From positions 310,001 through 374,000 of the forward strand of contig NZ_LAZS01000014.1 in NCBI RefSeq assembly GCF_002007205.1: a stretch of 64,000 nucleotides of DNA, written 5' to 3'. The notes beneath the pieces are model-generated. The model did no database searches and had not been told where the DNA came from. It was given only the letters and a program-made list of their open reading frames with translations. Numbering within the stretch: the stretch's first letter is position 1; every line of letters starts with the position of its first letter. The translations under genes and the position numbers were made by a program. The stretch comes from Ensifer adhaerens (GTDB lineage: Bacteria; Pseudomonadota; Alphaproteobacteria; Rhizobiales; Rhizobiaceae). Shown one piece after another: positions 10,544-24,868 of this stretch.

Positions 10544-10561
10544 ATTTGGAACGTTCCAAAT
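10544..10561. promoter_or_regulatory. LacI-type operator upstream of the GMC-Dabb-glycerate kinase operon
   Basis: ATTTGGAACGTTCCAAAT is a perfect 18-bp palindrome with the central CG usual for LacI-family sites. It is nearly identical to the palindrome in front of the LacI gene ending at 24636, so the two units probably share a repressor. Confidence 0.75.
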
Positions 10562-10620
10562 TTTCGACGTAAAAATGTCAAACCCGCTCGCTGACGAGCC
10601 TTTCTGCGTCCTGTCTGTGT

Positions 10621-11400
10621 CTAGAGTCGGCCGATCGAAAGCCCGCCATCCGCCTGGATGACCGAACCCGTGGCAAAGCCGAATTTGCCGCCGGCAAGCC
10701 CGGCCGCGATGTTGCCGATATCCTCGGGCTCGCCCCAGCGCCGCATCGGCACCAGCCCGCCACTGATCAGCGAGTCATATTTTCCCGAAACGCCGGCCGT
10801 CATGTCGGAGCGGATGATGCCCGGCCGGATCTCGAACACGGAGATGCCTGAACTGGCAAGCCGCAGCGCCAGCCCCTGGCTGAAGGCGGCAAGCCCGGCC
10901 TTGGTCATGCAATAGTCGAGGCGCTCCGGCGACGTCATCGTCGCCGACACCGAGGTGATGTTGATGATCGAGCGTGGCGTCACGTCGGCCGGGTCAGTCA
11001 GCATCGACACCAGCACGGCCTGGGTGAAAAACACCGTGCCCCGCAGGTTGGTGGCGACGATCGTGTCGAAATTTTCCGGCAGCAGATCGAGGAAATCGCC
11101 CCGGACGGCCGAAGCGATACCGGCATTGTTGACGAGGCAGCGGATCGGCCCGAGCTCGGCGCGGACCCGCTCGACGGTCGCCGCATGCCCGCCGACATCG
11201 GCAAGGTTTGCCTCGATGTAGATCGCCCGGCCGTGCTCGCCGGAAAGTTCGGACAGCGTCTGGGCGGTTGTCGCGTCGGCCGCGCCGAGCCCGGTGATCG
11301 CGATATCGAAGCCTTCGCGGGCGAGCGAGCGGGCAACACCAAGGCCGATGCCACGGCGGCCGCCGGTGACGATGGCGACGGGGCGCGTCGATGACGTCAT
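10621..11400 (-). CDS. Short-chain dehydrogenase/reductase
   Basis: A 259-residue classical SDR. The cofactor motif TGGRRGIG is at residues 12-19, NNAG at 91-94 and the catalytic Tyr163-x3-Lys167 in YCMTK. PGIIRSDMT and the C-terminal GSVIQADGG are standard. The ATG overlaps the stop of the upstream GMC oxidoreductase gene as ATGA, so the longer reading frame extending to 12345 is spurious. It is the last gene of the ABC importer-GMC-SDR operon and probably reduces or oxidises a keto-sugar or polyol produced there. NCBI-style names such as 3-ketoacyl-ACP reductase would be misleading in this context. Confidence 0.88.
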   Translation of the reverse strand: MTSSTRPVAIVTGGRRGIGLGVARSLAREGFDIAITGLGAADATTAQTLSELSGEHGRAIYIEANLADVGGHAATVERVRAELGPIRCLVNNAGIASAVRGDFLDLLPENFDTIVATNLRGTVFFTQAVLVSMLTDPADVTPRSIINITSVSATMTSPERLDYCMTKAGLAAFSQGLALRLASSGISVFEIRPGIIRSDMTAGVSGKYDSLISGGLVPMRRWGEPEDIGNIAAGLAGGKFGFATGSVIQADGGLSIGRL

Positions 11401-12896
11401 GATCGGAACTCCCTGGTGACGATATGGTCGGCGACCCTGAGCGCCTGGGCGGCAACGGTCAGCGCCGGATTGACGGCGGCAGAGGTCGGCAGGCAGGCGG
11501 CGTCGACGACGAAGAGGTTCGGGTGATCGAAGGCGCGGCAATAGACGTCGAGCGGCGCGTCCTTCGGGTCCGTGCCCATGCGCACCGTGCCGCACTGATG
11601 CGACGGCGTGCGCTTGTCGAAGGCCTGGGATAGCACGATCGGATAGCCGGCGGCCTTGAAATGCGCGCGCATCTTCGCTTCGAGCCCGGAAAGCGCCTCC
11701 ATGTTGGAGCGCCGCCACTGCATGATGATGCCCTTGCCGTCGACCATGATGCGGCTTTCCGGGTTCGGCAGGTCCTCCGTCATCATGTACCAGTCGATCG
11801 CATGACCGGCCATGAGATCGAAGGCGAAGCGTGGCGCCCAGACCGGGGCATTGGCCTTGAGGATGTCGGCGTTGATCTTGCCGAGCAATTGCACATTGCC
11901 GAGCGGCAGGCCATTCCTGCCGCCGGTCAGGTAATAGTCGTTCAGCATCAGGGTCTTCTGGTAGACGCTGTCGTTGCGCTTGAACGGACTGATCGCCAGC
12001 ATGGCGCTGCAATTGTGGTTCATGAAGTTGCGACCGACCTGGTCGGACGCGTTGGCCAACCCCTTTCCGTCGCCGGAGCGCAAGAGGATCGCGGCCGAGT
12101 TGATCGCGCCTGCCGACAGGATCACCAGCTTCGGCGACAGTTTCTTCTTCTCGCCCCTGTGGGTGTAGTGGATCGCTTCGATCCGACCGCCTGGACCGGC
12201 CTCCAGCGTGTCGACATGGGCCGAGGTGATCAGCTCGACGTTGGGGTCCTTCAGCGCGGCGGCAAGCGACGCCGTCTCGGCATCCTTCTTTCCCGTTCCG
12301 GTGTTCGGAAATCCATCCCAGGGCGTGCGCCCGCCGGCAAGCCAAGTGTCGATATCGACGCCGAGTGGCAAGGTTGCCGGATGCAGCCCCTGTGCTTTCA
12401 GTTCGGCGCGGGCACGGGCGATGGCCGGCTCGTCCGGCACCGGGCCAAGAGGGTAGGACGAACTGTGGAACGGCTCCGTCGGGTCGTCGCCCAGTTCACC
12501 GCGTACCTCGAACAGTTGCTCGGCCTTGCCGTACCACGGCTCCAACTCCTCGTAAGCGAAGGGCCAGGCCGGCGAAATGCCGCCGAGATGCTGCATCTCG
12601 GTGAAATCCTCGGCCCGGTAGCGCAGCAACACCGCACCGAAGAGCTTGGAGTTGCCACCGACGAAGTAGAAGTTTCCCGGATTGAACTCGGTACCATCAG
12701 GCTCGCGCCACATCTCCCTCGGCCGGAAATGGCCCTTGACGAAGATGGAACTGTAGCTGCGCGCCTCCGGCGTGTCGGGCAGGCGCTCGCCACGCTCGAG
12801 GATGGTGATGCGGGCGCCTGAGCCGGCAAGCCCCGCAGCAACGGTGGAGCCGCCGATCCCCGACCCGATGATGACGATGTCCGGCTGCTCCTGCAT
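11397..12896 (-). CDS. GMC family oxidoreductase, sugar dehydrogenase-like
   Basis: A 499-residue flavoprotein with an N-terminal FAD motif IIGSGIGGSTVAAGL and the GMC_oxred_C end. His433 in SHQCGTVRMGTD and Asn476 in PTSAAVNPALTVAAQAL are the likely catalytic pair. This shorter form resembles pyranose oxidase and sugar 3-dehydrogenase-like GMC enzymes more than choline dehydrogenases, though their substrates cannot be read from sequence. It lies 6 bases after the ABC ATPase gene and overlaps the SDR gene by 4 bases. An imported glucose-like sugar or glycoside is therefore its probable substrate, oxidised to a keto-sugar. No signal peptide is visible, so it should act in the cytoplasm. Confidence 0.85.
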   Translation of the reverse strand: MQEQPDIVIIGSGIGGSTVAAGLAGSGARITILERGERLPDTPEARSYSSIFVKGHFRPREMWREPDGTEFNPGNFYFVGGNSKLFGAVLLRYRAEDFTEMQHLGGISPAWPFAYEELEPWYGKAEQLFEVRGELGDDPTEPFHSSSYPLGPVPDEPAIARARAELKAQGLHPATLPLGVDIDTWLAGGRTPWDGFPNTGTGKKDAETASLAAALKDPNVELITSAHVDTLEAGPGGRIEAIHYTHRGEKKKLSPKLVILSAGAINSAAILLRSGDGKGLANASDQVGRNFMNHNCSAMLAISPFKRNDSVYQKTLMLNDYYLTGGRNGLPLGNVQLLGKINADILKANAPVWAPRFAFDLMAGHAIDWYMMTEDLPNPESRIMVDGKGIIMQWRRSNMEALSGLEAKMRAHFKAAGYPIVLSQAFDKRTPSHQCGTVRMGTDPKDAPLDVYCRAFDHPNLFVVDAACLPTSAAVNPALTVAAQALRVADHIVTREFRS

Positions 12897-12902
12897 TGTT
12901 CG

Positions 12903-23572: not shown

Positions 23573-24636
23573 GCCAGTGCCTCCCTTTTTCTTTCCACCT
23601 GAGCGCCGCAACTCTGGCGAACGACGAGACGGACCGAGCTGACGATCGCTTCCGGCTCCGCCTTGCCGGCCTTGATCTGCTTCAAGAGCAGTTCGGCGGC
23701 CCGTTGGCCCATGCCTTGCGGATCGACGGACACCGTCGTCAGCGCCGGCACCGCCGTCTTCGCCTCGATCACGTCGTCGAAGCCGATGACGGCAAAATCG
23801 GCGCCTGGCTCCAGCCGCCGGGCCCGGAGACCATCGCAGACGCCGAAGGCGACCGCATCATTGAAGCAGAGTGCTGCGGTCGGCCGATCGGCGAGCATCA
23901 TCGCCTGCTCCACCGCCGTCACGCCGCCGGCGCGCGACGGTGCCGAACCGATGATCAGCGCTTCCGACACCGGCATGCCGGCCTCGACGAGGGCACCACG
24001 GTAGCCGCGCATGCGCGCCTCGAAGACGGCGGTATCGGGAAAACCGCCAAGGAAGGCGATGCGCTGGTGCCCTCGCTCGATCAGATGCCGGACGGCGGCC
24101 ATGGCGCCGGCATGGTTGTCGGATGTCAGCGACGAAACCTGGGCGCCGGCGATATCGCGGACGACCAGCACGACAGGAATTCCGCTTTCGACCAGCGGCG
24201 CAAGATCGGCCGCTTCCGTGCCGCGCGCCGGAGAGACGATCAGACCGGAAACGCCGTGCTCGCGCATCGACGCCACCACTTCGCGCTGACGCTCGATCTT
24301 CTCACCGGTATTGGCGAGAAACTGCACGAAGCCTGCCGACTGCACGACCGCATCGACGCCGACTGCGAGCTCGGCAAAGAAGCTGTTGGTGAGATCATTG
24401 ACGACGATGCCGATGATCTTGGACTTCGACTGGCGAAGGTTGGCGGCACCGCGGTTATAGACATAGCCGAGATCGCGGATGGCGGCGTTCACCTTGGCGC
24501 GCGTCGCCTCGTTGACGAGCGAGCTGCTTTGGAGAACGAGCGACACGGTCGACTTCGAGACGCCGGCGGCGCGCGCAATGTCGATGACCGTTACCCGTTC
24601 CTTGACCACAGCATCCTCCCGAATTCTCTTCGTCAT
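23569..24636 (-). CDS. LacI family transcriptional regulator (CoA/DUF993 regulon)
   Basis: A 355-residue repressor with [24 protein letters not shown] at about residues 15-35, hinge [20 protein letters not shown] and a type I periplasmic-binding-like ligand domain. It is the first gene of its operon. A perfect 18-bp palindrome lies 14 bases before its ATG, so autorepression is expected. The same site in near-identical form is found before the DUF993 gene and before the GMC-Dabb-glycerate kinase operon 14 kb away. This regulator is thus the best candidate for all three. Confidence 0.92.
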
Positions 24637-24649
24637 TTTTCTCTTTCAT

Positions 24650-24667
24650 AATTGGAACGTTCCAATT
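24650..24667. promoter_or_regulatory. LacI-type operator upstream of the LacI-Gfo-CoA operon
   Basis: AATTGGAACGTTCCAATT is a perfect 18-bp palindrome just ahead of the repressor gene. Its 14-bp core TTGGAACGTTCCAA equals that of the site at 10544-10561. Confidence 0.75.
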
Positions 24668-24852
24668 TCGTCAAGAGATCGCTGATCACTTTTTTCATCT
24701 CCAGCCGGCGCTGAGTGCAAGCGCCCGGTATTCAAGCGGGAGCGTGATCTGCGCGATATCCTGATCAACTTGCTGAAATACAACAATTATATATAGAGAT
24801 CCTGCCCTCCTGCAGAAGCGTCGCCTCTCCCGAAAAACATTGCCGCTTGCCA

Positions 24853-24868
24853 TTTGGAACGATCCAAA
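24853..24868. promoter_or_regulatory. LacI-type operator upstream of the DUF993 gene
   Basis: TTTGGAACGATCCAAA differs from the perfect palindrome core at one base. It lies 39 bases before the DUF993 start, on the far side of a 271-base divergent region whose middle is AT-rich (TTATATATAG), suiting promoters in both directions. Confidence 0.65.

Follow-up and report, generated by a model that had tools for sequence, protein, structure and literature searches.

Does one LacI-type operator, repeated before three separate transcription units of Ensifer adhaerens, mark a single local regulon, and which genes would belong to it? The question arises from a stretch of 64,000 nucleotides (contig NZ_LAZS01000014.1 of assembly GCF_002007205.1, positions 310,001 to 374,000 of the forward strand; hereafter the window), where a first-pass annotation noticed three copies of a palindrome: before a GMC-Dabb-glycerate kinase operon, before a LacI-Gfo-CoA transferase-hydratase-aldehyde dehydrogenase operon and before a DUF993 gene. 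All three sequences are present where they had been reported (Table 1), and the gene content was named correctly, the kinase being a DUF4147/MOFRL protein of the glycerate kinase type. As far as can be judged from sequence, our analysis also supports one LacI-type operator common to the three upstream regions, with the adjacent LacI protein (LacI1) as its likely binder. We consider it highly probable that LacI1, a LacI-family protein, regulates both itself and genes in its neighbourhood, most likely by repression, and that it acts at the sites O1 (before its own gene), O2 (before DUF993) and O3 (before GMC1, the GMC oxidoreductase gene of the third unit).

O1 and O3 are perfect 18-bp palindromes, O2 is one base off their 14-bp core TTGGAACGTTCCAA, and none of the three is more than about 60 bp ahead of a start codon. 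Across the 6,874,104 bases of the genome (22 contigs), the core occurs at two places exactly and at one with a single mismatch, all inside the window; from the base composition of the window alone, only about 0.009 exact places would be expected per genome. Because places with at most one mismatch are this few and all fall in the window, the motif is not scattered through unrelated promoters, and the earlier view that such a repeat is unlikely to arise by chance is borne out. It also holds within the window: at up to three mismatches to TTTGGAACGWTCCAAA there are eight strand matches, corresponding to four places, against 0.43 strand matches predicted by shuffles, the fourth place (49879-49894) having three mismatches. 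Exactly two mismatches to the core add 13 further places in the genome, a noise level, because a reversed control pattern yields 11 places in total at up to two mismatches. A search for regulon members beyond the window in 12 of these 13, inspected as 3-kb loci (L004-L015), found no cluster gene at more than 30% identity; two of the 12 (L005, L008) lie near other LacI genes.

Is the pairing of LacI1 and operator kept in relatives? Titled relatives are here the best 80 of 106 confirmed LacI1-related stretches, of which 79 have upstream sequence (L032 has none), and a site was counted at up to two mismatches within 500 bp upstream of LacI1. An O1-type site precedes LacI1 in 79 of 79 titled loci and a second site, corresponding to O2, in 74; outside those upstream stretches, the 1,485,141 bases of the titled relatives contain no site with at most one mismatch. 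The motif is thus conserved in orthologous loci, the comparison that had been suggested as a check. The LacI1-proximal core mostly ends 0-18 bases ahead of the predicted start codon. The closest titled relatives of LacI1, at 95-97% identity, come from Ensifer adhaerens ST2, E. sesbaniae and Ensifer sp. LC11 and Root278, and the 11-residue recognition helix does not vary among the orthologs (80 of 80), the most distant of which is 71% identical. Two of ten distant relatives were inspected (52% and 54% identity), and both retain helix and operator.

The same association appears in a family sample of 297 genomes, the window's own genome counted in. The exact core is present in 39 of them, each time at this cluster (30 by reading of the locus, nine by coordinates, with 19-43 bp between core and LacI1 match in these nine). 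Of the 57 genomes whose LacI1 reaches at least 67% identity, 35 have it, against 4 of 240 others, among which are ten with a LacI1 relative at 49-53% (Fisher 5e-26, a value that ignores relatedness). In the four exceptions, the core precedes a CoA transferase (CoAT) gene, or a Gfo gene and then the CoAT gene. Three of these, read over 19.0-19.5 kb, have operators at the head of the order (Gfo-)CoAT-ECH-ALDH-SBP-P1-P2-UgpC-GMC2, where ECH is the enoyl-CoA hydratase/isomerase, ALDH the aldehyde dehydrogenase, SBP the solute-binding protein and P1 and P2 the permeases; one runs on via SDR to GMC1, and the other two stretches stop in GMC2. None of the three stretches showed a recognisable LacI. 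Loci L224, L225 and L226, from three other genera, carry tandem operators 21-34 bp apart, with no LacI recognised within the stretch read; their regulator may lie elsewhere in the genome. Genus groups were labelled through one matched member each (Ensifer by E. adhaerens ST2, Sinorhizobium by S. americanum CFNEI 156). Stray sites with at most one mismatch number two in 16 Ensifer genomes (reversed control five) and, by our count, 11 in 33 Sinorhizobium genomes (reversed control seven), and in 32 of the 33 a site adjoins LacI1 by coordinates. In the remaining one, G334, a contig end cuts LacI1 and the sole site is on another contig.

How much of the neighbourhood belongs to this unit? The first-pass annotation had described the LacI/ABC system between the operators as an unrelated interruption, a view that has to be abandoned. 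In 54 of 57 genomes, a distance of 5.8-13.6 kb on one contig separates LacI1 from the best GMC1 match (in the other three, they are on separate contigs), and SBP follows ALDH in 72 of 80 titled loci, seven of the other eight being short loci that, by length, end before or just inside the SBP gene. This linkage shows that the ABC system is not unrelated. The conserved order is LacI-Gfo-CoAT-ECH-ALDH-SBP-P1-P2-UgpC-GMC2-SDR-GMC1, and the second regulator, LacI2, is present in 23 of the 80 titled loci: one conserved gene group, therefore, in which LacI2 is optional. Between the ALDH and SBP matches, the gap measures 103-266 bp without LacI2 and 1427-1608 bp with it, LacI2 lying on the opposite strand. 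The single true exception is L093 (Mesorhizobium sp. LSHC420B00), which has matches to LacI1, CoAT, ECH, ALDH and SDR and two GMC1-like matches (91% and 86%). There, the ABC genes of the cluster are absent, and LacI1 is divergent from a different ABC transporter.

Table 1. Operators, genes and other features of the LacI1 cluster, in window coordinates.
Feature	Position	Strand	Remarks
Operator O1	24650-24667		AATTGGAACGTTCCAATT; 13 bp upstream of LacI1 start codon, its 14-bp core 15 bp upstream
Operator O2	24853-24868		TTTGGAACGATCCAAA; core 40 bp upstream of DUF993 start codon
Operator O3	10544-10561		ATTTGGAACGTTCCAAAT; core 26 bp upstream of GMC1 start codon
LacI1, LacI/GalR-family regulator, 355 aa	23569-24636	-	Pfam LacI 7.3e-16, Peripla_BP_3 5.6e-36
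Gfo/Idh/MocA enzyme, near 1,5-anhydro-D-fructose reductase (AFR)	22571-23569	-	87.6% (PDB 4koa) and 87.0% (2glx) identity over 331 aa
Family I CoA transferase, YdiF-like	20947-22566	-	Pfam CoA_trans; PDB 2ahu YdiF 5e-114
Enoyl-CoA hydratase/isomerase family (ECH)	20175-20954	-	Pfam ECH_1
Aldehyde dehydrogenase (ALDH), near L-sorbosone dehydrogenase	18667-20181	-	Pfam Aldedh; PDB 3u4j, 7w5l
LacI2, second LacI regulator within the cluster, optional	17503-18567	+	Pfam
Second LacI2-type site, less conserved	17417-17433	-	AAACGTTTTAAAT
LacI2-type operator	17281-17298	-	ATTTATAACGTTTTAAAT; next to TTGACT box, between LacI2 and SBP gene
CUT1-type ABC transporter (ATPase, two permeases, solute-binding protein)	12903-17200	-	Pfam for 3 of 4 proteins; permease 14904-15782 named by eye, outside the Pfam scan
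GMC2 oxidoreductase, part of cluster	11397-12896	-	
SDR, part of cluster, upstream of O3	10621-11397	-	
Terminator-like hairpin	10580-10601	-	between SDR and O3; 1 found vs 0.2 in shuffles; weak
GMC1, choline-dehydrogenase-like GMC oxidoreductase	8864-10519	-	Pfam GMC
Dabb-domain protein, 105 aa	8539-8856	-	Pfam Dabb 1.5e-14
Glycerate 2-kinase type protein (DUF4147 + MOFRL)	7264-8538	-	Pfam
DUF993 protein, aldolase-like fold	24908-26080	+	Pfam DUF993 4.9e-185; divergent from LacI1
TonB-dependent receptor	26151-28355		adjoins DUF993; 7 of 80 loci have a match of at least 70% identity; probably outside the regulon

We propose that a LacI1 dimer would bind three genomic copies of the 18-bp palindrome with central CG (WWTTGGAACGTTCCAAWW): O1 would control the putative lacI-AFR-CoA transferase-hydratase-ALDH operon, O2 the divergent DUF993 gene and O3 the GMC1-Dabb-glycerate kinase genes. 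LacI1 would be released by a sugar-like inducer, for which 1,5-anhydro-D-fructose or one of its close derivatives is plausible, and the three units would so be switched on together; with the intervening ABC-GMC2-SDR genes they are part of one conserved catabolic cluster. Several observations weigh against this proposal. The exact core is not present in 22 of the 57 LacI1-bearing genomes; many titled relatives hold operator versions with one or two mismatches. O3 is missing from 16 of 30 Sinorhizobium loci. Of the 32 loci in which DUF993 was not found, 28 still carry O2, which may therefore have a secondary role at that gene. A consensus scan recognised no sigma-70-like promoter around O1/O2 or O3 (the consensus may not suit this host group), and a repressor geometry could therefore not be read from the sites. 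Finally, 26 of the 80 loci (25 titled Rhizobium, one Mesorhizobium) have the CoA transferase but no AFR gene in this position, and this weakens the guess at the inducer.

Could a different LacI protein be the true binder? Of the 35 LacI domains in the genome, 33 pass the Pfam cut-off and two fall below it, and LacI2 is located between the sites. The recognition helix was read for all 35 domains, and SKSTVSLVL belongs to LacI1 only. LacI2 has the helix LAVTTVSRAL and faces a different palindrome, whose part TAACGTTTTAAA recurs beside a TTGAC box in 24 of 24 aligned rows. Its own conserved operator, and its frequent absence from loci that nevertheless keep O1, led us to reject LacI2 as the binder of O1, O2 and O3. 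Given that motif and LacI1 also co-occur across genomes, we regard it as very unlikely that any other LacI protein of this genome reads the three sites; the unique helix and the differing LacI2 palindrome make LacI1 the best candidate. One further regulator (G000:C4:666869-667955; loci L008 and L235) has the helix VSKSTVARVL, with TGGGAACGTTCCCA about 100 bp behind its gene and ahead of ABC permease genes; judged by their letters, helix and core both resemble LacI1 and its operator. The mode of action is a separate matter: LacI1 might activate transcription, or have a dual role, at one site or several. The distances from core to start codon differ among the three (Table 1), O2 is kept where the DUF993 gene is missing, and no promoter was recognised; moreover, for PckR, a rhizobial LacI-family regulator, the LacI regulon survey gives negative or positive modes as predictions (PMC4052901). 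Against this, all three sites occupy the region just upstream of start codons in which a bound repressor normally overlaps or follows the promoter, and a LacI regulator that acts singly and locally usually represses. We therefore hold activation to be improbable and retain LacI1 as a probable repressor.

O2 and O3 call for a closer look, as each could do something other than serve the gene behind it. An operator does stand before DUF993, as had been claimed, but the retention of a same-side site in loci where DUF993 was not found loosens its assignment to that gene. In Rhizobium johnstonii 3841, the nearest divergent open reading frame (ORF) of at least 150 aa begins 436 bp from O2, and at locus L040 the first kilobase beyond O2 has no clear divergent gene, the nearest minus-strand ORFs being more than 1 kb off and overlapping plus-strand ORFs. 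In 20 loci, though of related species, O1 and O2 are spaced 105-107 bp apart. These facts would fit an arrangement in which O1 and O2 act jointly on the lacI operon, for example through a repression loop, O2 serving that operon at least as much as DUF993. The overall spread of the spacing (76-378 bp), however, does not favour it, nor does a helical-phase test on 38 distinct spacings, which was not significant (R 0.25, p ~0.09 at 10.5 bp; p 0.24 at 10.3 bp and 0.08 at 10.7 bp), and where DUF993 exists its start keeps a near-constant distance from O2 (32-58 bp, mostly 35-40). Joint action is thus possible without being the likelier account; O2 may contribute to repression of the lacI operon, whether or not a loop forms. 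O3, in turn, is present in the window as claimed, but among the loci examined it is limited to Ensifer and part of Sinorhizobium. At one mismatch or fewer it lies upstream of GMC1 in 16 of 16 Ensifer loci, with differing flanking bases, and in 14 of 30 Sinorhizobium loci (from 33 genomes, the other three showing no such site in the genome-wide match list); in the best 30 GMC1 loci of the family, five of five Ensifer have it, none of two Sinorhizobium and none of 23 from other genera. Could it be a chance palindrome or decoy with no function at GMC1? The many loci without O3 might suggest so. Its constancy in Ensifer amid differing surroundings argues otherwise, as do the expectation of about 0.009 exact sites per genome and an all-or-none pattern, in which the region shows either one mismatch at most or five and more. 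A functionless O3 is, in our judgement, hardly credible, and we keep it as the third predicted operator of LacI1.

Outside Ensifer and Sinorhizobium, in the loci examined, operators stand at the head of the cluster and none before GMC1; Ensifer and part of Sinorhizobium have a third one ahead of the distal genes. A gain of O3 through insertion of LacI2 was considered: among Sinorhizobium loci, O3 is found in 12 of 20 from genomes with LacI2 and in 2 of 10 from genomes without it (Fisher p 0.058, uncorrected and ignoring relatedness), and two genomes, G311 and G328, have O3 without LacI2, so that this idea is only suggestive. In Sinorhizobium loci without O3 (L211, L213, L214, L215, L217), the gap between SDR and GMC1 is often GC-rich and repeat-like, for example GGATGAGGGG, as if a repeat element occupied the place of the operator region. 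In some lineages, control of the transporter probably falls to LacI2 through its different operator. The locus offers a view of regulon rewiring within one cluster: before a downstream gene, an operator is either wholly there or wholly absent, and in some lineages another LacI, with an operator of its own, adjoins the transporter genes.

What might the regulated genes break down? The LacI1 operon contains a reductase gene whose product, with 87.0-87.6% identity to 2glx and 4koa, has a predicted 1,5-anhydro-D-fructose reductase activity, and this likeness lets the regulon nominate genes of anhydrofructose catabolism. The SBP is 85% identical to Oant_3817 (PDB 4r2b), whose structure was solved with bound glucose. 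The putative sugar transporter gene smc04396 of Sinorhizobium meliloti is reported to be induced by dextrin (PMC4960864), and locus-tag order suggests that it is the ortholog of the cluster SBP. Taken together, the reductase and the dextrin-induced smc04396 point to an anhydro-sugar, or a glucose-like compound related to it, as the most likely inducer and substrate. The DUF993 protein has 58% identity to SMc04132 (PDB 4dnh) in structural alignment, followed by dihydrodipicolinate synthase folds (mean pLDDT of the model 73.8). A bolder reading, which we hold to be doubtful, would have the LacI1 regulon mark out the whole aerobic 1,5-anhydro-D-fructose or anhydro-sugar pathway of the Rhizobiaceae. 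In it, the glucose-type ABC transporter would import the anhydro sugar; AFR, GMC1, GMC2 and SDR would perform the redox steps; the part of carbon-carbon lyase would fall to DUF993; and the fragments would reach central metabolism through ALDH, CoA transferase, hydratase and glycerate kinase. Such a pathway, if true, would replace or complete the published route via a C1 hydroxylase. More generally, regulator and operator have stayed together in 79 of 79 titled relatives and so mark genes of one pathway, and the co-regulated genes, DUF993 included, form a short candidate list for the breakdown of an unusual sugar.

Finally, we would like to set the cluster beside known systems. 2glx is the 1,5-anhydro-D-fructose reductase of Sinorhizobium morelense (PMC5969746), and Rhizobiaceae are described as converting 1,5-anhydrofructose to 1,5-anhydromannitol and on to mannose by C1 hydroxylation, the P450-like enzyme being unidentified (PMC12441222). 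S. morelense anhydrofructose catabolism and our cluster have the reductase in common. The published route, as given there, needs the P450-like C1 hydroxylase (PMC12441222), whereas the scanned cluster proteins are dehydrogenases, a CoA transferase, a hydratase, an aldolase-like protein, a kinase and transport components; no P450 was found among them, the permease at 14904-15782 and the rest of the genome lying outside that search.

On the regulatory side, Galardini et al. 2015 use a motif matrix for the transcription factor SMc04401 of S. meliloti, with a small predicted regulon of 4.04 genes on average (PMC4560400). The tag follows just after SMc04390-SMc04392, annotated as L-sorbose dehydrogenase, SDR and dehydrogenase, and smc04396, which fits the cluster; by this locus-tag order, SMc04401 is a probable LacI1 ortholog. 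With such a matrix in use, the LacI1 motif may already be predicted in a database. Among open PMC papers, our search found none naming the operator, including a direct search for its letters, and LacI1 and its motif are unnamed in the accessible text of Ravcheev et al. 2014 (PMC4052901). According to that text, even palindromes with a central CG are the rule for LacI-type sites, and local LacI catabolic regulons share, besides such a palindrome, a LacI helix-turn-helix with sugar-binding domain, a site before the regulator's own gene, few operons and adjacent sugar-type genes (PMC4052901). LacI1 resembles them closely: its operator is an even palindrome with central CG, the predicted autoregulatory site is in place in 79 of 79 loci, and 6.87 Mb of genome contain three sites with at most one mismatch, all within the cluster. 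It differs from PckR of the Rhizobiales, whose global regulon has sites at many central carbon genes in the same account (PMC4052901), by its three sites at one cluster. It is closer to AglR and ThuR, likewise local rhizobial regulators of ABC-transporter sugar operons, but their operons, by description, hold kinases and hydrolases, unlike the LacI1 gene set (PMC4052901). Among local gene switches, a LacI regulon with a palindrome of this type is standard and ordinary.

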